Shown: one piece after another, positions 5,280 through 37,951 of the stretch
Layout: every line of letters begins with the position of its first letter
Numbering within the stretch: position 1 is the stretch's first letter
Assembly: GCA_004151065.3 (NCBI GenBank)
Contig: NWUY0304636274.1
Span: 1-38,711 of the forward strand
DNA: 38,711 bases
DNA from: Larix sibirica
Lineage: Eukaryota > Streptophyta > Pinopsida > Pinales > Pinaceae
Reading direction: 5' to 3'
Made by a program: the position numbers and the translations under genes
The notes under the pieces: model-generated
The model's input: the letters and a program-made list of their open reading frames with translations, nothing else
Databases searched by the model: none
Told to the model about the DNA's origin: nothing

Positions 5280-5800
5280 AGCTGCCTTTTTATATGGCGA
5301 ACTCTTCCTATGGCGAAAATAAAGCTCACATAATACGGGCGAACTTACTACTTACTATGGCAGAAAGCGGAAACAGACAGTAAGCATACATAATACAGAC
5401 AGGAGGCAGAAATGAAGCATAAAGTAAAGCGGGCATCGGCCTTACTTAAAGCGGACATCGAACAAAAATAATAAAGTAAGCGGCGATAATACGGCGGACT
5501 AAATGTAGCCATCATATGCTCATAGAAAGCTTACAGGATGGGTCATGGCCAACCAAGGGGGAAAATCACATCTAGCTAGAGAAAACGAACATCCTATGGC
5601 GAACAGAAAGGGTAAAACATAAAGCTCACTGAATACGAAATCAAGGGTAAATTATACGGGGAAGCGTACTTAATGTGGGCAGAAACATAAAGGGGATATC
5701 GGACATAAAGGCGGACAGCAGACAGGAAGCGGACACGGACTTAAAGCGTACTTCATACGAACTGACTGAAAGCGCTGATGTAAAAAAGAAAGGCAAGGTC
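5280..5800. repeat. Diverged AAAGCGGAC/CATCGGAC short-unit array
   Basis: The words TAAAGCGGAC, AAAGCGGGCATCGG, GGATATCGGACATAAA, GCGAACTT, AGACAG and CATAATAC recur dozens of times over about 500 bp with no constant period. This looks like an ancient tandem array scrambled by point changes and slippage. Frames inside it have biased composition and no domain. Confidence 0.6.
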
Positions 5801-7510: not shown

Positions 7511-8906
7511 TAAAGAAAAGTAATTAACTATTGGGATAGAGTACCAGCATCGGCTGTATCAAAAACTCTTGGGATCAAGTACCAGCGATACCAGCATAAA
7601 AACCTACCTGGATAAAGTGAATATCAAAACCTCCTGTAATTGAGTGGATCACCACCACTGGGTAATAATAGGGAAATGATCTGAAAGGATGTAGTTAAGT
7701 AAATATAAAATCCATTTTATTGCTTCAATGGGTTATCCTGGATGGACCCCGTTAACGTACCGCATAATGGCCGGTACTCAATAATTGCGGTACTTAATAA
7801 TGGTGGGTACTTCTTGATTCCAAGAGGAAAGCCCACGTGGAGATGCCGGTACTCCTATTTTTATATGCTAGCGATACTAAAATAGCTATAGTTCATATTA
7901 ACAGATTAATCTGGTTCAAAGAGGAAAGAGCCCTGTAAAAAAAAAGAAGTCCTGGCCAAAAAGGAATAACCCCATCCGGTTGACATAAGAAAGAGCCTTG
8001 CTTAAATTATAATTCCGATAAATAAGGGAAACGAAGCCTGGTCATTTACATACCAAAACAATACTTCCGCTACTTACCGCCGATACTGCCCGCATCACGA
8101 CCCCCAATCTGGAACGAGCTACGGTAACAGACAGAGACAGAAAATCCAAGTACAAAAAATAGGAGTGTTAAGGCTGGAACTGGCCAGTAATAAATTCCCC
8201 AGGTTAATGAGGAGTTTCATCGAGCTTGCGGGGCTTGAAAATATAGCAGCCATTAAGGAAGCCAGGAAGCCATGGAGCTGAAAGGATAAATCATTTGGAT
8301 CATCAGGCTGCACAGAAAGCACCCGTAACTTAGACTTAGGACCAAGGCAGGTACAAAAGAAAGAGCACAGGCTGGAAATCAATGAATGGTCAGTGAATCC
8401 TAGGTCATTGAGGAGCGTTAATCATATCGCTTTTCGTTGAAGGTCAGGGTAACTCAAGTCAGGTCAGGTCAGGAGCTTCCAACCAGACAGGAAGGAGATT
8501 TAGTTATTACTTTCCACCGATTGTCATGACTAGCAGGAAAGAGATTGATTTAATCTAATCAGCATAGGTAAAGACATGAGCCAGGACAGAAGTGGCAGAG
8601 TCTATGGTTGTGGTTACAGATTCTTATTCCTATCCAGTGCCTGTTTACCTTAAAACTTAAACTGAACAAGAACCACCTCGCCGGCATCCCTTACAGCCGC
8701 CAGTTTTAGAACCAATTTCCGTTTATCCAGTTCTATTTAGAGCAGATCGATATTTAGATCCGGCTTCAGTGACCATTGAACATAACCCGTTGATTCCCTT
8801 ATATATCGTTCAAGGCTGCGGCAGGAGCAGCTGATTTGATTGATTCAATTCAACCACCGCCCATATTGAGATCGAGAGCTAACAGCTTCCCTTCACACCA
8901 AATCCA
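7511..8906. other. Anonymous sequence, no gene seen
   Basis: TACCAGCATCGG and ACCAGCGATACCAGC words at 7540-7640 extend the repeat vocabulary of copy A. AGGTCAGGTCAGG at about 8460 is a small tandem run. I see no coding region or RNA gene. Confidence 0.55.
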
Positions 8907-8952
8907 TATCTTTAGCGAGTTACTGACCGAAAGGCAGACCCCGCTAAAGATA
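8907..8952. repeat. 11-bp perfect inverted repeat (hairpin)
   Basis: TATCTTTAGCG at 8907-8917 is exactly reverse-complementary to 8942-8952, with a 24-nt loop. A perfect 11-bp stem this close is unlikely by chance at any one site, though a few are expected in a long window. Confidence 0.8.
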
Positions 8953-11439
8953 GATACGGTTCCAATTATAGCCTGTTTAAGATTCTCTAGTTTCAGTTCC
9001 GAATACGGGAGTTGGCCGAATGAAAGCAACACGTTGTGCATAGCCAGTTGATCTTGATCCGGATACCCGTGAACCAGAAGATCTAAGTAAATTGTTAATC
9101 TAACGGAAAAAGCTAGAGCTGGAAGGGATGTTGGGCTGGCTATATATAGGTGGTAAACTGCTACTAGGACAATTGAATAAATGGCGTATAGAACCGAACG
9201 AAGAGAAGCTGGTTAAGTAGAAAATAAATCACGGTCAATTGCCATAAACTAGGAATCAACCTAGGCTACTAGTTATTGAAATGAAATTGGACGGATGAAC
9301 GGCAGCAAGGATGCTGATCTTTTATCCAATCAATAATATAAACCTACAGCGGATGAAGCGCCGCTTTATTCTGAACCAAGTGACCCAGCACCAGCAGTGT
9401 GGGCACCTTTGTGATAACCTTGGCTACTTGCTTTACTATATATGTCTCTGTGTCTTTTGCTTTCGCTTCTGGCTTTGCCACTCATGCTGCTGGTGGTTCC
9501 GGATCAACTTCAATGAGCGCAGATGCTGCTACCTTTATTCCCAGTGTTTGCTCCTGCCGCTCTTCCTTTATTTTGCCTGCTTTACCTCGAACTCCTCAAA
9601 ATAAGGTAACGTAATATACCTATTCCTACTGCTTACAAGCGCTACCAAGCTCTTCATTCAAAAACGAAGGGGACAACAAGTGGCAAGTTGTTTGAGCTAT
9701 GGCACAATAATTTTAGTCACTTGCACCGTAGAGAACCTCCTCTATTGAAAGATATGGTGCAGGGATTGCCAGATTGAAAAATTGAGCCAATTGGTGTGTG
9801 CAAAGGATGTGCACTTGGTAAGCACTCCAAGTCTGCTTTCCATATAGCAAGTAGAGATTGATAGAGATTCTCGAGTTGATACATTCCGTCTATGTGGGCC
9901 TATGTATTCCTGTAAGGTCAGTAAGAATTGACCGGATTAAAATGAGAGATTAGGTAAACCCCCCCTTACCTGAGCATGAAGGTAAGTTATAACCTTTAGT
10001 AAGCCTGTATGTAGGCAGGCTCCTCGATAGACCCTTTCTTTCTGGCTGGCTTAGTCATTTCAATTATGGCTTCTGTAACTACGATAGATAGATCGGTTGC
10101 CTACAAAAATTATGTTATAACCTTGACGGATGGACAATGAGATATCCATCCGGCCTCTACCGCCCATCCATTGCATCATGACTTGTTCTTGCCTTACTCT
10201 TGCTTACTCTTGCCGTCCATCCATCTATAGGCTGAGGTAATATAATGGTCTAAGTGCACCCCCAATATATGGAGTCAGGTAGTCATGAAAAAGCGGTTTC
10301 GACGATTCAAAAATAGATGCTGTATTCCATTAATGCAGCTTTACCTGGTTGTCTTTCATAAAAGCAAAGCACATTCAGTGAAGTTTGTTGAGGAGAATGG
10401 AAATCACTGAACGCTTGGGTTGTGCAAATACGAGAGTGCATGTTGTAAAGAAAGCAAATCTTATGTCTGACTGATGACCTAAGGCTTGTTAAAACAGTAA
10501 TTCAATTTCGCCCAAAAGGCGGGTTCTAAAGAAGATTCCAATATAGCATATAAATAATATTATTATATGAGATTCAAGGTGAAGCTTTGTGAGGCGCGGA
10601 GCGTCTACAAAGAATAAGTAGGTTAAAGAAGGCGTTATAGTGCTTAGAATTAGAATTAGCAAGTAATAAAAAAAGTATTAAAGGCTTCGCACCTCGTCTC
10701 GTCCGATCAATCAAGAAGGAATACGAAGAGCTATTCCATACCTTGGAATAAAACCAGGCAGGCATGCCCTAAAGCAAGAGACGACCTCACACCACGAGCG
10801 AGTTACTACAGCCTATATATTATTCACCTGTTGAGGATCATATGCAACATAAGCGCCTTCAGCCTTGAACCTTTTGACAGATGCCAGAAGCCTTTGCCTT
10901 TTTTGCCAAGGGGAAACTTATCTAGGAAATGCCGAATCCCTTTCGGCCGGAGCTTTCTCAATAACGGGAACTTTCTCAGCAGTAAGTACTAAAAAGCGGT
11001 TGGTCCCGGCGCTTGGGATGTTATGGCTCCTCAGTAACGGACTCTGCCCCTTTGCCTCTTTTCTAGCCCCTAGTCATTAATAAGCGAGCGGGAAAAAAAT
11101 AGAAATTGCCCTTATTTATTATAGTTGGATTCTTAGGAAAGTAACCCAATAAATCCTTTTTCCCTTTCATCGGTGAGTGCACGGAAGGAAACTGCTCTGT
11201 AGCTTAGTCATTCCATTAAAACCCGAAGTTGTAAGAAATTCATTAAGGTAAACCCCTTTGATAAAAAGCGATAACAAGGAATATCCGGATATGTCCAGGT
11301 ACGGCGGAGGTTAAGATACGTGTTGGAAGCAAGCTTGCACACGAATGGGGAGGGGAGATGGAAGGGAAGCGTTACTTATTCTACTCACTATAGATGATTT
11401 TCATATGCTTTATCCGTCCATCTCTCATCCAATGTTCGG
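8953..11439. other. Anonymous sequence, no gene seen
   Basis: Around 9440-9600 there is a weak echo of the GCTGCTGGT vocabulary. A GGCTTCGCACCTC motif lies at 10681-10696 and a related GAGGCGCGGAGCG word at 10591. Overlapping frames of 60-97 codons show no recognisable domain. Confidence 0.5.
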
Positions 11440-26060: not shown

Positions 26061-28084
26061 GCATAGATTCGGAGCTTGTCCTCACCTCACTGATGGATAC
26101 TGCGGATAGGGATGACCAGCTTAATGATACTTAGATCAAACATGTTCTTATTGGCCTGTCCCGAACGAGCATCATATATAATGTAAATATATAATTCTTA
26201 TATATCCCATGCCGTATGCGAATAAACGTATTCTGACTGAACATAAAATATTTTATATGCCGATCATTAACCCATAGCGATTTATAAAGTACCCCAGTTG
26301 AATAGGTGGGAGTGCCTTATAGTGCAATAACTAACTTCTATAGCCTATTATGGGCATGCCAAGGTGCGCTGGCCAATGTAAATAATAATTTCATTGGGGT
26401 TGGGGTTGACCGGCTTAGATTGCCCTACTTAGATAGCTAGCGAAGTGCCATGTCCCGAGTCATTTGCTTAACATGCAAAAACTTTCGTTTAATGATACGC
26501 GTTGGGTACAGATACCGATACGAGGATCCAGCTGTTTCATTCCTATCTAGGCTTGCCGCATATTCTTCCGGTTGACCAGGAAACAAAAGGCTAACGCCTT
26601 TCCTCCATCCATGTTGGGCACACATCCCGCGAGGAAAACATGTCCGGATTACTGCTCGACGAGCGATCTATCAAATATAGTGTCCATGATCTGGCTTTTT
26701 CATGCTCACTCTGAACTGCCCTAACAGAGGACTTGGTTATTGATTGACTCGGTTCAGCATACTAAGATTTGAAGTATCAGTTGGCCCAGACATATCTAGC
26801 CTATGTATTGTATGTAAGCGTCGTCAATAAGCAGCTGTTCCACACACGTACTGCCTGCTGATTGAGGATTGCTTACTCCTACCTATGGATGGTAAAGATC
26901 AAAAATTTTGCAATTTGGCATGTATAGCTCTCGATTTGATCTCTCCCAAAATAGGTATAGTAAAGATGTATCCACTTGGTTTGCTGCTCCACCCACCCGA
27001 TATTAAGTAAAAGTATTTGAATGGCCGAAAGTAAGGATCCAGTCGTCATACCCTCCCTAGCCTCGAAAGCGCGTTGTCTTGAATGCCCCCCCTCCCAAAA
27101 TCGGGTTATCCCATTCCGAAAAAGGATCGATCTTAGATCAACCTGAGGTATGGAATAATCGGATAAATTGAGTGCTCACTCAATAAATAAACCGAGCAGC
27201 CAAGAATATTTGGTTCATGAAGGAATCATTTCATAATCGATCGTATCGCGTCATTGTACATCGTATAATAGTGACATAGCTCTTGGCTCTGGGATGAAGC
27301 ATAAATTATCAGGGCAACGTATGGTAATATTTCCACACCCCGCAGTTCCAGGGTTTCCGCGTTCAGTCAATCTATGCAGAGTTAATTGGTCCCTTCTTCA
27401 TCTGCCTACCCAACTTCTCTTTCGCCTACAAACCCTACCTACCCTCGCACATACCCTCCCCGGCTCCTCAATAAGTATCTGCCTAGCTGTCTTCCCTATT
27501 GACCTAGCTCCCTATCGATCTAACCCTTCCCTAGCGAAGGTGAAGGTAAGGTGACGCAAGTAAGGTCATCACCTACCTTTATTTCTTTTTTATTTCACTG
27601 TCCATCGAGGAGGCTACGATGAGGAAGCTTGTTCTCACTCACCCCGTTTGCTTCATTTATAAAATACGAGCCCATAGGACCCCCGACGGTTCTATCCTTA
27701 ACCACCACTGATACCACTTTCACTGATGCAAGTAAAGCAGGCCCCACTCCATTGATCAAGTGTGCTGGAGAAACAGTGGCAAGCTCAGATCTCACTATAT
27801 AGCAGAGTTCGAGCCGGCTCTGGTAGAATGAAGACCGCTAATTCATCCTTTTTAATTCATTCTTTCTTTGGATGCACTTACCGCGCAAAAGAAGGCAAGT
27901 ACTTGAATGTGTAGGCAAGCACTCGAGAAAGCAAGTTATAAGGCAATAACTGGGGTAAGTAGCGGAGCACCAACTAGAGTAAGTCATGGGGTGAACGGGT
28001 GAGGTATAAACCTCTGAAATGGCCATTTTCTATCACTCTATGGCCACTTTGTGACCTGAGATAGGGTGTTTCCCATTTGAGGTC
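26061..28084. other. Anonymous sequence, no gene seen
   Basis: Frames of 62-86 codons are present (for example 27595-27795 minus, with fairly ordinary composition), but none has a motif I recognise. Confidence 0.45.
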
Positions 28085-28098
28085 ATAAGCGCGCTTAT
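28085..28098. repeat. Perfect 14-bp palindrome
   Basis: ATAAGCGCGCTTAT is perfectly self-complementary, with a second AACGC word just downstream. Confidence 0.9.
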
Positions 28099-29809
28099 AA
28101 CGCTTTTTATTGACAAAGATTGGGTTCCATGGGTTTGACCGGCCAAATACGCCTTAAGGAGTTGGTTAATATGATAGCACCCTACTGATCTGCCTTATTT
28201 CACAACTCTTCCTTAACTATTTATGCTATGCTCGGGGAAACAAACTATCCTTCTCCCTACGCTTTTCCATCTGCTTTCGAGGAAGTTGGGCCATCGCTGC
28301 CGAAAGGAAGGTCGGATGAAACAAAGCATTACCCTGCCTACACGGACAATCCTACCTCGTTGGACCTACAGTTTAGTAATTGAATTAGGAAGAGAGTTGC
28401 TGACTCAACCGAACTTGGCTCGCGTAGGGGCAATGATGAGAGTGCATTTTACCTTCTTTCGCATGCACCGGATCGTGCGCTTGTGCTTGTTCACATAGAG
28501 TTTGGTTTTGAAAGTGTGTTATTGAGCGCGGGTTCAGGAAGGCTCTCTCTTGGATGGCTGCCTCTTTAACGGCCCCAGAAAGCAAATCCATCAAGTATAC
28601 AGGTGAGCAGGACCAATTGAGCAGTAGAGTAGTTTAAGAGTAGTTGAATCGATCGTACCAACCATAATATAGTATACAAAGAGATATAAATTATATATGT
28701 AATTATGCTTGCCTTACAAGGGCGAGGGCCTTGCAATATCTTCCCGAACTCTCAGGACCATATCTTCATCTTCCCAAACTATACTCATTAGACTAGGAAT
28801 TGCTGAGTAAGAACCTATCATAACAGAGTGAATTCTTGCACGGGAGGAAGTAGCCTCCGATACAAAAGTGAAATACAAAGGGAAGTTCCATAGACGACAG
28901 TGAGGTACCAAATACGAAGACACACACATAAGGCTGAGCATTTCATAGACACAAATTACCAGATCTACTACTTATAACCGCTACTTAAGGAAGAGCCAAG
29001 CCGATTCATTAAGACTCTAAATTGCCAAAGCCTTGTCCACAGAGAGACCGAAACAAACAGTATACTATTTGGTGATCCAATCATTTCAGGAAAAAGGATT
29101 TCTGCGTCTAACTAACTACTGGATGGCTTAAGGCCGGCCAAGCCCTAAGTGTGCCTGAATGAATATGGAATTGACTCTGCAACTGCCTTTTGTTAAGCCC
29201 TTTTTATCCATTGAGTCTGTTACTTCTGCTCTGCTTCTGGTGGAAATGATAAAACCACTGCGCTTGCCCCTTAAATAATATGATAATTTTTCCTTCAATA
29301 GAATAGGCTTCGAAGACCCATACATCTTGCAAGAATGAGAGGAACGGGGTTCTAACGAGCTCCCTAAGCTAACCTAACGGTCCACCACGCCACGATATCT
29401 TGGCTTTCAAGCAGATATGAGAAGCACTGCATACATAGGTTTTTTTACTTGCAGCATACCGTCTAACCAAGAATGAGACCCCTTCTGCAAACACAGCACA
29501 CAATTTCTGGAGGGTTTATTCGAGCTATGCTCACTCTTTTAGGGGAAGAAATAAAGGGGGCCAAGGAAAAGGGCGGCCTAGATGGTAAATTATCCTCTAT
29601 GAACCCGTCCTCGCCCGACCGTCTCTTTTTAGGGCAATTTTCTTTTTGAGGAGGTTAGACTAAAGTAAAGTTGCCTTAGATTTCTTTTATGTACGCGAGC
29701 TAGTAGCTTCTTTTCAATATTAGAAAGTAATCATTTGCTGAAACTAGCTAGCTGTTGAGGTTGTTTAAATGAAGTGTGCAGTAGTTATACCCATTTATAT
29801 CCGCTCAGG
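28099..29809. other. Anonymous sequence, no gene seen
   Basis: A 91-codon plus frame (28223-28498) overlaps a second readable frame from 28228. Neither matches a family I know. GATGGTAAATTATCC at about 29582 is one more GGTAAATT word. Confidence 0.45.
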
Positions 29810-29852
29810 GCTGCTTAAATTGCTAGCTCGTGTATCTGTTCTTTTAAGCAGC
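29810..29852. repeat. 10-bp perfect inverted repeat flanking the hairpin array
   Basis: GCTGCTTAAA at 29810-29819 is exactly reverse-complementary to 29843-29852, with a 23-nt loop. It sits immediately left of the hairpin array and may be its boundary or its first, longest element. Confidence 0.85.
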
Positions 29853-29867
29853 TATCGACGAATAATA

Positions 29868-31054
29868 AGTCCTTGTGTTATTACATATATAAGAATGGTT
29901 CTCAGCTAATAAACACAATTAGTATAAATAGTGGTTGCGCGAGTGAAAAGCCCGTGCGTTATTACATCTATAATGATGGTTTCCATATGAAAGATCGAGT
30001 CAGTAGAATAGTTGAAGAAACACTTGGTAATAAGTCGCGCGAGAATTTACGTGTCGTGCAAAGAAAGATGCTTGTAGTTAGTGAACTGAGTGAGTGGTCG
30101 CCTCCTGTGGTGACTGACGCGAGTAAGTAATAACTCGTAATTTATTAAGTGTGCGCTCTCCCGTTAATAGGGAGCAGTGCTCAGGGAAGTGTGTGTTCCC
30201 AGATGGAGGGCAGTGATTTCAATATGCCTGTATCCCTTTAGTAGGAGGGGTGAAAGAGTGGTTCGCCTGACATAAGGCGAGGTGCGCGGGTAGTGACTCG
30301 GCTGTATCGAATGAGGTACGGTTAGTTCGGGGTACAATTAGTGCCTGTCATGAGTGGTGAAAAGCAAGTGATTCTCCTTGAGTAAGGAGGATGCAAATTG
30401 GCTTGCCTATATAGATAGGGGTAAGTAGTGACTCGCCCGTAATGAGCGAGATGATTGATTGGGGCCCCCAACCAATAAGGTGGGGTTTATAAGTAATCGT
30501 GCGTCGTAAAAGCGTACAAGTTGGTAAGGGACGATTAGTTTCTTATATCAATTTGGTGAAAAGGATTCACTGATTCACCGTGAAGTTAAGATATACTAAG
30601 TAGATCTAAGAATTATAGTCCTCAAACGGGCTAGTAATTGTGGGGAGTACTCTCATAAGAGTGCTCGGTTCATAGTATAGAAGCTTTCCTAAAGGGAAGG
30701 CAAAAGTATTGTAATGCGCCTCAAAGCAGCGGGTACAAGTGATTTCCCCTATAGGTGGACGATCTTAATAGAAAGAGCAATCTGCCTTATGTGAGCAGGA
30801 TACAGGTAGGTAGTTTACGCACTTCAAAGTGTGTTATAGATGTGCATGAGTCGCTTCTATGAAAGCGAGATGAATGAGTTGGGAGAGTCTAAGGACTTTC
30901 CAGTATGTTAGCTAGGTTTTATAGCGACTTAGCTTATCTCTATCTATTTAGGATTAATAGCGACCGTAATGTGGGTCAATCTATACTTTGTGAAATCGGG
31001 TGGAAGATAAACCCCCTGGTTCAATAATATTATAAGTGTGATAATTATATCACA
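29868..31054 (+). repeat. Array of about 30 consecutive short stem-loops
   Basis: Almost the whole stretch is a string of small inverted repeats: stems of 4-11 bp (G-T pairs allowed), loops mostly 4-9 nt, and centres usually 25-40 bp apart from 30120 on. Clear examples (left arm / right arm) are 30158-30162/30170-30174, 30184-30188/30196-30200, 30263-30268/30275-30280, 30371-30379/30384-30392, 30524-30532/30538-30546, 30645-30653/30658-30666, 30817-30823/30828-30834, 30851-30856/30863-30868, 30882-30889/30894-30901, 30910-30917/30927-30934 and 31037-31043/31048-31054. Many units share a loose pattern: GTGA-T before the left arm, an arm like TCGCC, the complementary arm, then GATG. Arms differ between units but stay complementary. 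The function is unknown. It may be a structured RNA, an expanded palindromic repeat family or a mobile hairpin array. Confidence 0.85.
29873..30130 (+). other. Open frame of 85 codons inside the hairpin array
   Basis: The left end of the array is also open for 85 codons. It contains an in-frame repeat offset by 81 nt (27 codons): YYIYKNG near the start and YYIYNDG about 27 residues later. Hairpins underlie both repeat copies (29957-29964 with 29971-29978, and the matching positions 81 nt upstream with one mismatch). I recognise no protein family. The reading is hydrophilic after the repeats (ENLRVVQRKMLVVSELSEW). It may be a real small gene, but the frame can equally be a by-product of the duplicated hairpin unit, since the array continues unchanged past its stop codon. 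Confidence 0.25.
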
Positions 31055-32689
31055 AATTGTTCTCATTCATAGGACGCTTTATTTTATTTCCCCATATTTT
31101 TTGAGTCGGCCGAAGAATGAGTAATGGCGCACCTTGTTTCTTTCAATTTGGTTCCATTTGAGTTTTGCACGATAATGCAAGCAGGGTAGTTTTTATATTC
31201 ATTTACACCTACGAGGCAATTTCGGCATATTCCTTTTACAATGCACAGAACCTTAATTGAAAAGTGCACTTCTTATATAATTGGTATATCCGCATGCACT
31301 TCACCTTATGTTCTGACGTGCTTCAAGCTTTCAAGCTGACATGGACATATATTTTATGCCTTAATGAACATGGCAATACTTCGAAGTGAGGGTTAACAAG
31401 TGAGAATGAACTAAGGTTTCTTTCCTTCAAAAATTAAGGTATTTTGCATTACATAAAAAGGATAGATGCTAGCATTGAAAAGGCATTTGTTTCTGCATGT
31501 TATTTGCTGAACTCAACGCAACACTGGTTGATTGTATTGCAATTATTTTGATTGATTCTTTATTTCACATTTCCAGCGAGCGTGTAAAAAGAAATCAATT
31601 TGAGGCAAAGTGATCACATTACTTCTTTTGTTGCTAGCTCACATCTTGTTCATTAAAAATAAGGAGTGCCTCAAGGAGGTTCCGTTCAATCTTTTACATT
31701 ATGATCTTTAAGTAAATGCACGATCGCACATGCACGTAACACTAGCACTTTCTTTCGCGCATGTTATACATTCATAATGATTATTCAAGCCGCGTGATTA
31801 TTCTAGACCTAGCTGCTTTTGTTTTGGAACTAGCTAGAACTAGCTGCTGGCAGGAGGTATCGGTATAACGGGAACTCATTGCGAAATATCAGTCAGAGCA
31901 TAGTGACAATGGACAATTGAGGCAGCTGCTTTGTACCATTACCATAATTTCCTTGAGGCGGGGCTTATTATCGAACCAATTGAATGACCATACATTATTG
32001 AACCACTGGAATGACCACTCTTTTTTACCTAATTATCCCGTTAACTGCATTATAAAAAAAAGGAGGAAAGGAGGAGCATGGTCAGAAGTAACATCAGTTG
32101 CTTTCGGAAATTGAACTAATGCCCTGGTAGTTTACTCTTTCTCATATCGACCCTTCGGTGCTACCTTGCTCGAATCTATTGTAAACATCCGTCTTCAGAC
32201 AAAACACTAGCGTCTTTTACACAAGTAGCCCTTGGCATAGATGTTGAAAAGTCATAATTATATATATAGTGGGTAAATGGAAAGAGCATATAAGCCCAAG
32301 ACGACGAAATGGCACGAATTCTTTACCCGAACGTAAAAAACAACCCACTGGATGGAGAAACACCACTCACTCTTTTTAACCATTCCAGCATCCGAATCAA
32401 TCTTGTAATAGATAGGCTCACTGCTAAGCATTGGGCATGTCATTAGTGTTTCGTCGGACCTATCCTTATTGGTTGGGATCTAACAAACTAAATTGTGTAT
32501 ATAAAGAAGAGCCTCAATGGAGTTACGATCGGGAACCATCCAGTTCGAGAATGAATCTAGTTCCAGCAGTGACACACCACGTATCAAAATCAGAACCTAA
32601 TCACGTATCTTATCTTAAGATAACTGTAATCACTCTTGCAGCCGTCTCTTGCAGCATCACCGTCAACATTAAGGGATTCGAGCGTCGGT
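31055..32689. other. Anonymous sequence, no gene seen
   Basis: A/T-rich and without recognisable genes. CTAGCTGCT/GAACTAGCTGCT words form a small repeat at 31808-31850. The 141-codon frame at 32431-32856 is only recognisable in its last third, which belongs to the gypsy fragment below. Confidence 0.5.
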
Positions 32690-34370
32690 GGAAGCATTCT
32701 TTTTTGTGTAAGGGGACTATTATCCATATCGATCATCAACCTTTGCAATACTTGCAGACCCAGACTAAGCTCCAACAAGCAAGACATTTGAAATGGATGG
32801 GGTTTCTGCAAGAGTTACAGATAGTAATAATAATATATAAGTTGATAAACTGCTAACAAATTGGCTGATTTGTTACAGAGACCGCAAACACCCAAAATAA
32901 CATTATGGAAGCCATCATGCACATGGAGCCCTTCACCCACAAAGCATACAAGGAAAGCTACGCTGAATATAAGGACTTTAAGGGGGGGGGTGTATAAACA
33001 ACTGCAAGGTCATCAAGAACTGGCATACAGAGACAATAAGGCTCATTACCATCTTCAAGATGGATTGCTCTAAAAGATAGGGAAGTTGTGTGTGTGTTGA
33101 AGGAAAAAGAGTACATCTAATAAGGGAGGAAAACACCTCCAAGGTTGCTGGACATTCTGTGTTGGGAAGACTGTAGCCAACTTGCAGAGGTATTTATATT
33201 GGCCCAAGATGCAGTAATAAGTATCTAGGTTTAAGAAGTTTATATTGTGTTGTATTAACAAGCCTAGCAACATGAAGCAAGGACTATATAGTACACTTCC
33301 AACACCTACAAGGCCATGAAAAAGTATATCCTGCATGGACTTTGTTGGGGGTTTAAAAAATACAAGAAGAGGGAATGACTTTCTGTATGTGGTAGTCTAA
33401 AAGTGAAATAAGATGTGTGTTTTAATAAGATTATCAAAGGACAAGAAGCAAAAAGCTTGTTCTTTTAAAGGGTCTGTGTGCACTTTAGGAAACCAAGCAA
33501 CATCTCTAATTGGCATACTCTATTTATTAGTACATTATCGACTTCATTATAGGATAAGCTAGATACCAAATTGAAGAGGTCTACAACTTTCCATCTCCAG
33601 AAAGATGGGCATACAAAGGTGGTGAATAGGACATTGTTTCAACTTTTTATAGGATACAATCAGAGGAATATAAGGACCTTAGACAATAATTTGATTTTTA
33701 TTCAATGCTTCTCTAACAAAGTTGTCTGCACTTTCACCATTCCCCTTTTATGTCTTTTTGGGGTATTTACCACCATTACCTTTATACATTGTGTACGGGA
33801 AGCCTGAAGTAGAGTGGGCAGAAACCTCAAGCGATGCACTGAAAGCCAATAAGTTCATTAATAGGATCAAGTATATACACTTTTAGGGTTAGGATAAACT
33901 GAAGAAATCTAAAAGTACAAGGCCAGAAATAATCAATACAGGAATGGGAAGACTTTCAACGTAGGATACATTGTATGGTTGCACCTGAATAAGGGAAGGT
34001 TGCAAGTTCCAGGAAATAAAATAAAGGCCCTAAGATATGGACCTTTCAAAGTCTTAGAGAAGGAAGGAAACAATGCTGACATACTTAGTTTGCTTCCTTA
34101 TATGTACATTTACTCATTAAAAATGTGGTAAACCTTAAACTCTATGAGCCATTGATGATCGATGATAAAAAAAGAGGGAAAAGTCTTACCTTCCATAGAA
34201 AATTTGGTACCAGAAGCACATGCAGGATTACCAAAAGATCTGATTCTACAGAAGAAGATAAGAACAACCAGAAAGGGTCAACAATAACTTTGGTAGGTGG
34301 GATTGAAGGGAAAACTACTATAGAAGGCCAAATGGTACTCTACGGAGAAAGCCAAGGGCTTCGCACCTCA
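32690..34370 (+). pseudogene. Ty3/gypsy pol remnant, RNase H to integrase end
   Basis: Domains appear in the usual order, broken by many stops and frameshifts. RNase H: IHIDHQPLQYLQTQTKL at about 32735-32785. Linker: ADLLQRPQTPKI at 32864-32899. Integrase zinc-binding region: VGKTVANLQRYLYWPKMQ at about 33160-33213, with a CC knuckle at about 33247. Integrase core start: MDFVGGF near 33340. Third catalytic block: DGHTKVVNRTL at 33604-33636. C-terminal GPF module: RYGPFKVLEKEGNNA at about 34033-34078. In the family the third block normally carries the catalytic glutamate where this copy has lysine (AAG, 33616-33618). Part of the integrase core after 33360 is short or scrambled. Reverse transcriptase and everything upstream is absent. 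The fragment is defunct and lies in the same orientation as the copia remnant downstream. Confidence 0.9.
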
Positions 34371-35699: not shown

Positions 35700-37951
35700 C
35701 GAGAAACGCGAAGACCAAAGGAAGAGGAAGAATAAGTCCATTGTTTAGACAACTAAGGCTATGGTTAATGACCTAACTCTGCCTATGTTCCTTTGGGCGA
35801 ACACATGAGTACAACTATATAAATCCTAAACAAGTGTCCTCACAAGGTATTGAAGGAAAAAACATCAAAGGAAGCTTTCACTGGTGAGAAACCCCAAGGA
35901 TCACACTTTCGTGTTTCGGGTTGTCCTGTATATATTCATATTCCTGAGGAGAAAATAACTAAAAATGAACTCTCAGTTTGAAGGGCGTTTTTGTTAGATA
36001 CAATAAATACTCCAAGGCTTATAGAGCCTACATTCCATCACGGAGAAATATAGTATAAGCCAAAACGTTAAGTTTTATGAGGATGCATGGTCCTCAAGGT
36101 CTCAGGAGCCTCCAACAAAGGTTGAGGAGGGATAAACACTTGCTGTCCCAAATGTTGATCAGGATAAAGAAAAGATTTCAGAATCAGATCAGCAAGGTTC
36201 CGAAGATGGAATCAATGCTTCAGTGCCTTCCAGGAAGACAGGAAGCCTGCGTGGCTTACCCAAACATTACAGGATGCACAAAAGCAAGTTGGAGCTCCAA
36301 AGACGTCTTTTTGGGTAAGTCATCCTCCCAAAACGTTTCTGAATTATGTTCATTGATGCCTTCCATCATTGATGCATAACCTTATAGTTATGAAAAGGCA
36401 GCAGGTGAGCAAGTTTGGCAGTATGCTGCAGCCTTGAGCATATATAACCCCCCAAGGAGTATAACTCCATTATGAAGAATAATATTTGGGAGATTGTGCT
36501 GAGACTAGTGGGGAAGTTCGTTATTTATTCCAGGTAGTTGTACAAAGTTTATCATACAACAGATGGCAGCATAGATAAATATAAGGCTCGGTTCATAGCT
36601 AGAGGATTATCCCAGAAAGAGGGAGTTTACTATGAGGAGACCTTTGCTCCATTTGCCAGGTATACTTCTATCAGGACCATTATGTCTTTAGCATCTATTT
36701 TTGGTTGGTTCTAGTTATACAGATGGATGTTAAGACAACCTTCCTTAATGCCCTGATTGAAGAAGAAATGTACATTAATCAGTCGAGAGGGTTTGAGGTG
36801 CGTGGGCGATATACCCATGTATGCAGTTTGAAGAAGGCCCTTCACGAGCTGAAGTAGGCACCTCAGGCGCCCGTACTCTAGGATTGATGAATACTTGTTC
36901 AGTTTGGGCTTCACCAAAACTGCTGTAGATTCTAATTTTTATTACTTATTTTATAGATCTGATTTGCTTGTTGTGGTCCCTTAAAGTATATGATTTAATA
37001 CTTACAAGGAGTTTAGAGAAGCTCATTGCAGGGTGCAAGGCTTCATTGGCACAAGAGTTTGACATGAAGCATATTGGACTCATGCACTATTTCTTGGGTC
37101 TAGAGGTATGGCAAGGTGCAGCTTAATTTTTACTGGGGGCAAGGAAAATACATTGTTGAGATCTTTAATAGGGTTCACATGGTGGATTGTAACCCCATGA
37201 CCACTCCTATGATGCCAAATCTGCAGTTGCATGGCAACTTGGATTCATATTTGGTAGATCTTCCTTGTATAGACAGTTAATTGGATCTTTGATGTATCTA
37301 GTTAAAACCAGACCTAATATATGTTTTGCAGTTAACACCTCGAGCTAGTTCGTGGTTGGGCCAAGGCAAATTCATTGGATTGCTGCAAAACGTGTGCTCC
37401 GATATCTAAAGGGCACAATACATTTTTGGTTTTAGCTATGTAGGAGATGGTAAGTTTCTTTTGCATAGATTTGTTAATTCTAACTAGGCAGGAGATGCAG
37501 GTGGCAGGAAGAGTACTTTATTTAAGTATGTTGTTTCAACTTGGGTTTAGGAGTGATTTCCTGGTTCAGCAGGCGGCAAGTTTCAGTAGCATTGAGTTCA
37601 GCTGAAGCAGAGTACATGGCAACCAACACAACTAGTTGTGAAGCCATATAGCTTTGCAAGTTTATTGTAGAGTTGATAGGCGAGATGCTGGAGCCTACTA
37701 TGATCTACTGTTACAATTAGAGTTGTATAAAACTCTTTTTGAATCCTGTATTTCATGACTGCTCCAAACACATGGACATTAGGTACCATTTTATAAGGGG
37801 CAGAGTTTAGAAGGGAGCAGTTGCTCCAGAGTATGTTTGGACAGATCAACAGATTGCGGATATTTTTACTAAGCCCTTGGCCAAAGGGAAGTTTTTTATG
37901 TTCAGAGAGCTACTTAGAGTAGTTGAGAACACTTTACTAGGTAAGATGGAG
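35700..37951 (+). pseudogene. Ty1/copia pol remnant, integrase to RNase H
   Basis: A nearly colinear run of copia-type polyprotein with dozens of stops and frameshifts. Integrase end: KNKSIV and KAMVNDLTLPMFLWA (about 35730-35805), then SHFRVFGCPVYIHIPEEK (about 35898-35955). Post-integrase: YNKYSKAYRAYIPSRR (about 35999-36045). Reverse transcriptase: KYKARFIARGLSQKEGVYYE and FAPFARYTSIRTI, then MDVKTTFLNALIEEEMYI (36722-36775). The YVDD catalytic site should fall near 36983-37006, where the sequence reads KVYDLILT, so one aspartate is missing. Later come HYFLGLEVW (about 37087), RPDICFAVN (about 37312), ALSSAEAEYM (37589-37618) of RNase H and ADIFTKPLAKGKF (about 37857-37896). Gag, protease and most of integrase are absent. 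It is a dead nuclear-type retrotransposon copy. Confidence 0.95.
37943..37951 (+). other. Probable polypurine tract of the copia element
   Basis: AAGATGGAG lies directly before the TGTTAGAAT sequence that opens the putative LTR, where copia elements carry the plus-strand primer site. It is short and broken by one T. Confidence 0.5.

Follow-up and report, generated by a model that had tools for sequence, protein, structure and literature searches.

Large plant organelle genomes contain DNA that is mostly of no known function. A strand-specific RNA architecture within gene-free DNA of this kind offers a concrete place to ask whether a working RNA is present. This question is raised by a run of small stem-loops in a contig of Larix sibirica (NCBI assembly GCA_004151065.3, contig NWUY0304636274.1), which was analysed over its full 38,711 nucleotides, referred to here as the window. 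The array also bears on whether mitochondria have carried RNA elements besides the mitoviruses. No gene can be named in the window, and it contains no tRNA genes; the relaxed mitochondrial tRNA modes return one weak candidate on the − strand (29838-29894), outside the core of the array. Cytosine methylation leaves an excess of TG and CA. The window is low in CpG (0.60) without such an excess (1.02 and 1.04), and this composition, together with the general appearance of the sequence, is suggestive of DNA from a plant mitochondrion.

The window also carries the remains of two retroelements. A decayed Ty3-type element is marked by an RNase H-like domain on the + strand at 32701-32853 (Pfam PF17917, E 1.8e-5; a longer piece gives E 4e-6). 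A decayed reverse transcriptase of the Ty1/copia type lies at 36562-36711 (+), with 50 residues matching Pfam RVT_2 (PF07727, E 1.4e-8), and additional pieces seen by eye in the reading frames give this element a wider extent of 36500-37950. Short repeats are found towards the left of the window. Near the left end the + strand has five copies of the heptamer CCAGCAG (46, 112, 133, 172 and 345; 46-351), along with a 21-nt tandem repeat at 111-159. Four copies of the hexamer GCGGAC fall in 5451-5735 (5451, 5494, 5711 and 5729), compared with two across the remainder of the window, both strands counted.

The extent of the array was assessed with two folding measures. The first is a scan of the window in 100-nt segments, each compared with 40 dinucleotide shuffles, and the second is a local-fold z-score for which the pairing span is limited to 45 nt or less, again against 40 dinucleotide shuffles. 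The 22 segments of the scan with starts at 29901-30951 have a mean z of −1.70 on the + strand and −1.20 on the − strand, compared with −0.05 and −0.06 for the remaining 751. The running mean of the + strand z over 23 segments reaches its window-wide minimum at the array (−1.64), the next lowest value being −1.05 at 35951. The folding signal of the scan spans from about 30050 to about 30950. Over this core the local-fold z is −8.1 on the + strand and −5.6 on the − strand, and the + strand forms 21.1 hairpins per kb compared with 8.8 in the shuffles. The hairpin array is confirmed as genuine and as distinct from the rest of the window.

An earlier note on this DNA, made by inspection, had described the stem-loops and proposed a shuffle test of their density, which the array passes with the values just given. 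All seven of the hairpins and inverted repeats it had located fold as claimed (29810-29852, and those beginning at 30371, 30611, 30645, 30882, 30910 and 31037 in the table), several of their stems including a G-U pair. The interval it gave, 29810-31060, is upheld in its centre, 30050-30950. The outer parts do not rise above chance: on the + strand the z of the four segments with starts at 29851-30001 ranges from −0.50 to +1.09, and that of the segments with starts at 30901-31001 from −0.21 to −0.95. The stretch 29850-30050 taken by itself also folds at the level of chance.

The same note had seen nothing comparable elsewhere in the window. This is correct for a run of + strand hairpins but not for single sites. 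One 100-nt segment at 28001-28100 is strong on both strands (z −4.84 on + and −3.93 on −), segments at 8851-9000 reach −4.33 and −3.05 on the + strand, and the 1.1-kb chunk 36001-37100, which overlaps the decayed Ty1/copia-type retroelement, stands out on the − strand with a local-fold z of −5.1. These sites lend some weight to the view that the array is a product of chance or composition, a G-rich and C-poor stretch that folds well by accident, as single segments at 28001 and 8851 are equally extreme. The excess of the array is also smaller, and modest, with a finder which accepts Watson-Crick pairs only and scores both strands alike (24.4 versus 17.5 hairpins per kb, or 16.6 versus 10.5 at a stricter threshold). 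Such an accident is nevertheless very unlikely, as shuffles that preserve the dinucleotides still leave a z of −8.1 over 901 nt and the mean over the 22 local segments is the minimum of the window.

A feature overlooked in the earlier note is the one-strand character of the array, which belongs to the + strand. Within the core, long terminal stems, defined as those with at least six uninterrupted pairs, favour the + strand over the − strand by 16 to 5. When 170 chunk-strands of 900 nt are ranked by this count, the top three (15, 11 and 11) overlap the array, the next has 10 and the median is 4. The whole fold of 29800-31060 has an energy of −406 kcal/mol on the + strand and −288 on the − strand, and with pairs of up to 45 nt the stretch 29781-31080 gives −345 and −232, respectively. 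The G-C skew of the core is +0.29. The highest-scoring G-over-C segment of the window, which was located without folding, coincides with the array.

The share of G-U pairs within the array is that expected from its composition (z +0.4 against shuffles). The strand preference therefore rests on composition and energy, with no separate excess of G-U pairs. The strand-symmetric finder likewise counts G-T against A-C mismatches at 18 to 6 where composition predicts 1.87 to 1, which is no clear excess. A G-U excess beyond composition is thus unsupported. Among the unpaired positions A is over-represented (z +3.4) and C under-represented (z −2.9) relative to shuffles.

Table. Coordinates of the array, its hairpins and its flanking features
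Feature	Position	Strand	Basis or folding energy
Significant core, string of hairpins	30050-30950	+	Local-fold z, hairpin density, long-stem count
Top G-over-C segment of the window; independent estimate of extent	29922-31006	+	Maximum-scoring segment, G minus C minus 0.06 per base
Succession of 30 outermost local hairpins, mean 8.9 pairs	30070-30934	+	Span-45 parse
Inverted repeat with 10-11 bp arms, left edge; no sign of belonging to the unit	29809-29853		Fold
Diverged 34-nt direct duplication, copy 1, left of core	29867-29900	+	Local self-alignment
Diverged 34-nt direct duplication, copy 2, 81 nt downstream	29948-29981	+	Local self-alignment
Hairpin, 7-bp stem, 6-nt loop	30262-30281	+	Span-45 parse
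Hairpin, 9-bp stem, 4-nt loop	30371-30392	+	−8.9 kcal/mol
Hairpin, 11-bp stem with one bulge	30611-30639	+	−7.7 kcal/mol
Hairpin, 9-bp stem, 4-nt loop; inside a 17-pair structure at 30637-30676	30645-30666	+	−11.4 kcal/mol
Hairpin, 8-bp stem, 4-nt loop	30882-30901	+	−9.7 kcal/mol
Hairpin, 9-bp stem, 7-nt loop	30910-30934	+	−8.7 kcal/mol
Perfect 7-bp hairpin, right edge, beyond the skewed segment	31037-31054		−5.4 kcal/mol

The figure of about 30 stem-loops, given from inspection, fits one span-limited parse (table), the count being dependent on the parse. In 60 shuffles of the same segment there are 24.6 ± 1.8 hairpins of 9.6 ± 0.7 pairs. At the same length (865 nt), 20 pieces of levivirus genomes contain 23-30 hairpins and 12 chunks of the window outside the array contain 20-27. 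What sets the array apart is thus its wealth of small hairpins, and little weight should be placed on the number 30 itself. The triplets UAA, UAG or UGA are present in 22 of 28 loops compared with 17.7 ± 2.2 in shuffled loops, a weak difference. Kissing loops are unsupported (0 pairs, with 2.5 ± 1.5 expected). Regular spacing of the hairpins was considered and rejected, their coefficient of variation (0.54) lying within that of the controls (0.44-0.64). Pairing of the array end to end and direct repeats at its flanks are unsupported, the longest being 9 nt.

The explanation might also lie in the DNA itself, the array being a cluster of mobile palindromic repeats like those of the mitochondria of fungi, algae and sponges. 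The abundance of short inverted repeats in DNA of organelle character would agree with this, as would the diverged 34-nt duplication at 29867 and 29948, which is the best internal match of the array (79%) and scores 44, above the best score of 38 reached by 60 shuffles. Mobile elements of this kind consist of near-identical copies of a unit, and no such copies are found in the array. The mean self-alignment score of the array is 21.3 versus 18.8 ± 0.58 in shuffles. Its internal near-matches number 62 versus 38.9 ± 9.7, an excess which in units of standard deviation is surpassed by four of the six stretches of the window that served as controls. As these controls show as much excess or more on this other measure, no repeat unit is claimed, and a tandem origin from one unit is rejected. 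No common unit is repeated among the hairpins, and a comparison of the window with itself by blastn finds no copies of them within it. Palindromes acting as DNA should, furthermore, serve both strands equally, whereas the long stems are divided 16 to 5. An origin in mobile palindromic repeats is accordingly extremely unlikely, and the earlier view of such elements as distant analogies only was sound.

A coding origin of the array was rejected on every count: Pfam, PHROGs, genetic codes 1 and 4, and triplet periodicity are all negative. The triplet periodicity is 0.29 compared with a shuffle mean of 0.74. No Pfam family is found in the array when its six frames are searched with stops as X at E up to 1, and no PHROG is matched in its three + strand frames at E up to 0.1. 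These searches return neither a replicase nor a coat protein gene of an ssRNA phage or RNA virus. Pfam includes a mitovirus polymerase model, and no fragment of a mitovirus polymerase is among the results at E up to 1. An open frame of 103 residues at 29819-30127 was also set aside; its one candidate relative is not retained at E up to 1, and its length is unremarkable in a window where 23 frames from stop to stop reach 100 residues or more.

Searches for relatives of the nucleotide sequence are similarly negative. No relative is found among plasmids by blastn, and the single phage match (56 nt, E 0.03) is taken as chance. Exact-pattern searches, three of viral contigs and one of prokaryote genomes with a single pattern each and sensitive only to near-identical sequence, return 0 matches. 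No motif resembling the plant mitochondrial promoter is found upstream of the array, and across the window its matches occur at the rate expected by chance (25 versus 30.1 ± 4.6). The titles and abstract openings surveyed in the literature describe no such array, which does not prove its absence. Against Rfam 15, the window has no match at the gathering score and 29600-31300 has none at E up to 5, and the initial impression that no described element looks like this holds within those limits. The models without a match include group II introns, ribosomal RNA and the other Rfam covariance models. Neither the hammerhead nor any other ribozyme of a self-cleaving viroid-like RNA is found in 29600-31300 at the same E value.

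The comparators for the folding of the array were E. coli rRNA (three pieces), the genomes of five leviviruses, namely MS2 and four metagenomic relatives (15 pieces in all), and eight other chunks of the window. The local-fold z of the core (−8.1) falls among those of the leviviruses (−3.8 to −9.5), compared with −2.6 to −2.9 for rRNA and −2.3 to +3.5 for the window chunks. Its hairpin density of 21.1 per kb compares with 10.9-19.1 in the leviviruses and 9.7-13.0 in rRNA. Local pairs account for 86% of the global folding energy in the core, the highest value recorded, with the comparators at 0.61-0.82. The positional entropy, in a comparison covering nine pieces, is 0.547 for the array (z −3.2 against shuffles), a mark of a sharply determined predicted fold, 0.467-0.677 for four levivirus pieces and 0.776-0.876 for three rRNA pieces. 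The local order of the array thus matches the level of ssRNA phage genomes, while its skew and its A-rich, C-poor unpaired positions are nearer to rRNA.

This rRNA-like skew and the A-rich unpaired positions would be accounted for if the array were a diverged part of a known structured RNA, for example of a group II intron or an organelle ribosomal RNA. Such an identity is improbable, given the silence of Rfam over the ranges stated above and a structure stronger than that of the rRNA comparator and more confined to local pairs. GNRA and UNCG tetraloops are also absent from the 28 hairpin loops, which weighs little with 0.4 GNRA loops expected from shuffled loops.

It is rather unlikely that the array is instead the fossil of an RNA replicon. 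The DNA would then descend from a satellite-like RNA, or from a stretch of an RNA virus without coding function, that was reverse-transcribed into organelle DNA and whose hairpins compacted and protected the replicating RNA. The ssRNA phages are the sole comparators which attain both the local structure and the low entropy of the array, so that the strong local structure characteristic of such genomes is present. Fragments of mitovirus polymerase are known in plant mitochondrial genomes, according to one report (PMC4393810), and the nearby retroelement remnants show that copied elements have reached this DNA. Against this stand the lack of any viral protein (Pfam in six frames, PHROGs in the three + frames) and of triplet periodicity. 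The skew of +0.29 also lies outside the −0.04 to +0.10 of the 15 levivirus pieces, although these comparators are phages and eukaryotic RNA viruses or satellites would be more relevant. Pairs of G and U are depleted in three of four levivirus pieces (z −2.5, −2.7 and −4.2; the fourth −0.6) and not in the array (+0.4), which suggests that in the array only one strand mattered. The strength of structure points towards RNA genomes, while a genome of the phage type is disfavoured by the skew, the lack of coding and the absence of G-U depletion.

The explanation preferred here, put at about an even chance, is that the array encodes a non-coding RNA of approximately 0.9-1.1 kb, or is a copy of one, and that its + strand was selected to fold as about 30 small stem-loops. 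Strong local structure, the preference for one strand, the composition that accompanies it and the lack of a coding signal are shown by the analysis, and selection on an RNA is what we infer. The RNA of the + strand would fold locally, hairpin by hairpin, with few long-range helices, and each hairpin could close while the RNA is being synthesized. The finished RNA would be compact and resistant to nucleases and would avoid long duplexes. It may serve as a stable scaffold or decoy, as opposed to a message. The array would then be either a resident RNA gene of the organelle or a dead copy. The presence of decayed retroelements in the neighbourhood of the array is counted against this explanation, as are the unexceptional share of G-U pairs and count of G-T mismatches, the irregular spacing of the hairpins and the lack of a promoter-like motif upstream.

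Among known systems, the hairpin elements of sponge mitochondria and the double-hairpin elements of fungi resemble the array in that hairpins lie in intergenic, organelle-like DNA. Those elements repeat one or a few units in nearly identical form (PMC2800124), whereas the hairpins of the array differ among themselves and favour one strand. Genomes of the levivirus type are alike in their level of local structure, hairpin density and low positional entropy. They differ in being coding and unskewed, with more of their energy in long-range pairs and with G-U depletion in three of four pieces, whereas the array lacks coding sequence, shows skew and pairs more locally.

A numerical likeness exists to the RNA of satellite tobacco mosaic virus. 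This RNA has 1058 nt; 30 stem-loops are proposed for it in the particle, and the crystal structure contains 30 stems of nine pairs (PMC3551766). The 30 hairpins of the array, averaging 8.9 pairs in one parse, are alike in these numbers only, and the numbers depend on the parse. The viral RNA encodes the coat protein and, when free, is extended with long-range pairs (PMC3551766), whereas the array has no coding signal and no partner protein is evident for it. By analogy, it is conceivable, if a long shot, that the array represents an undescribed mitochondrial element. This would be a non-coding RNA of about 1.1 kb, replicating now or formerly, with about 30 hairpins of some nine pairs, either packaged or capsid-free in the manner of a satellite, belonging to plant mitochondria and kept as a DNA copy. 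On the same doubtful reading, the design of about 30 hairpins would repeat, in a form that lacks a coding sequence, what has been proposed for RNA of the smallest icosahedral viruses.

Two further systems concern how an RNA might arise in, or come to, such DNA. It has been reported that gene-free plant mitochondrial DNA can give abundant transcripts, which is a precedent for the array, although a string of hairpins does not feature in the passages of that account drawn on here, and the term 'secondary structure' is absent from its text (PMC4647634). The mitovirus inserts of plant mitochondrial genomes are fragments of polymerase, whereas none is found in the array by Pfam at E up to 1; they represent a known route of RNA sequence into plant organelle DNA (PMC4393810).
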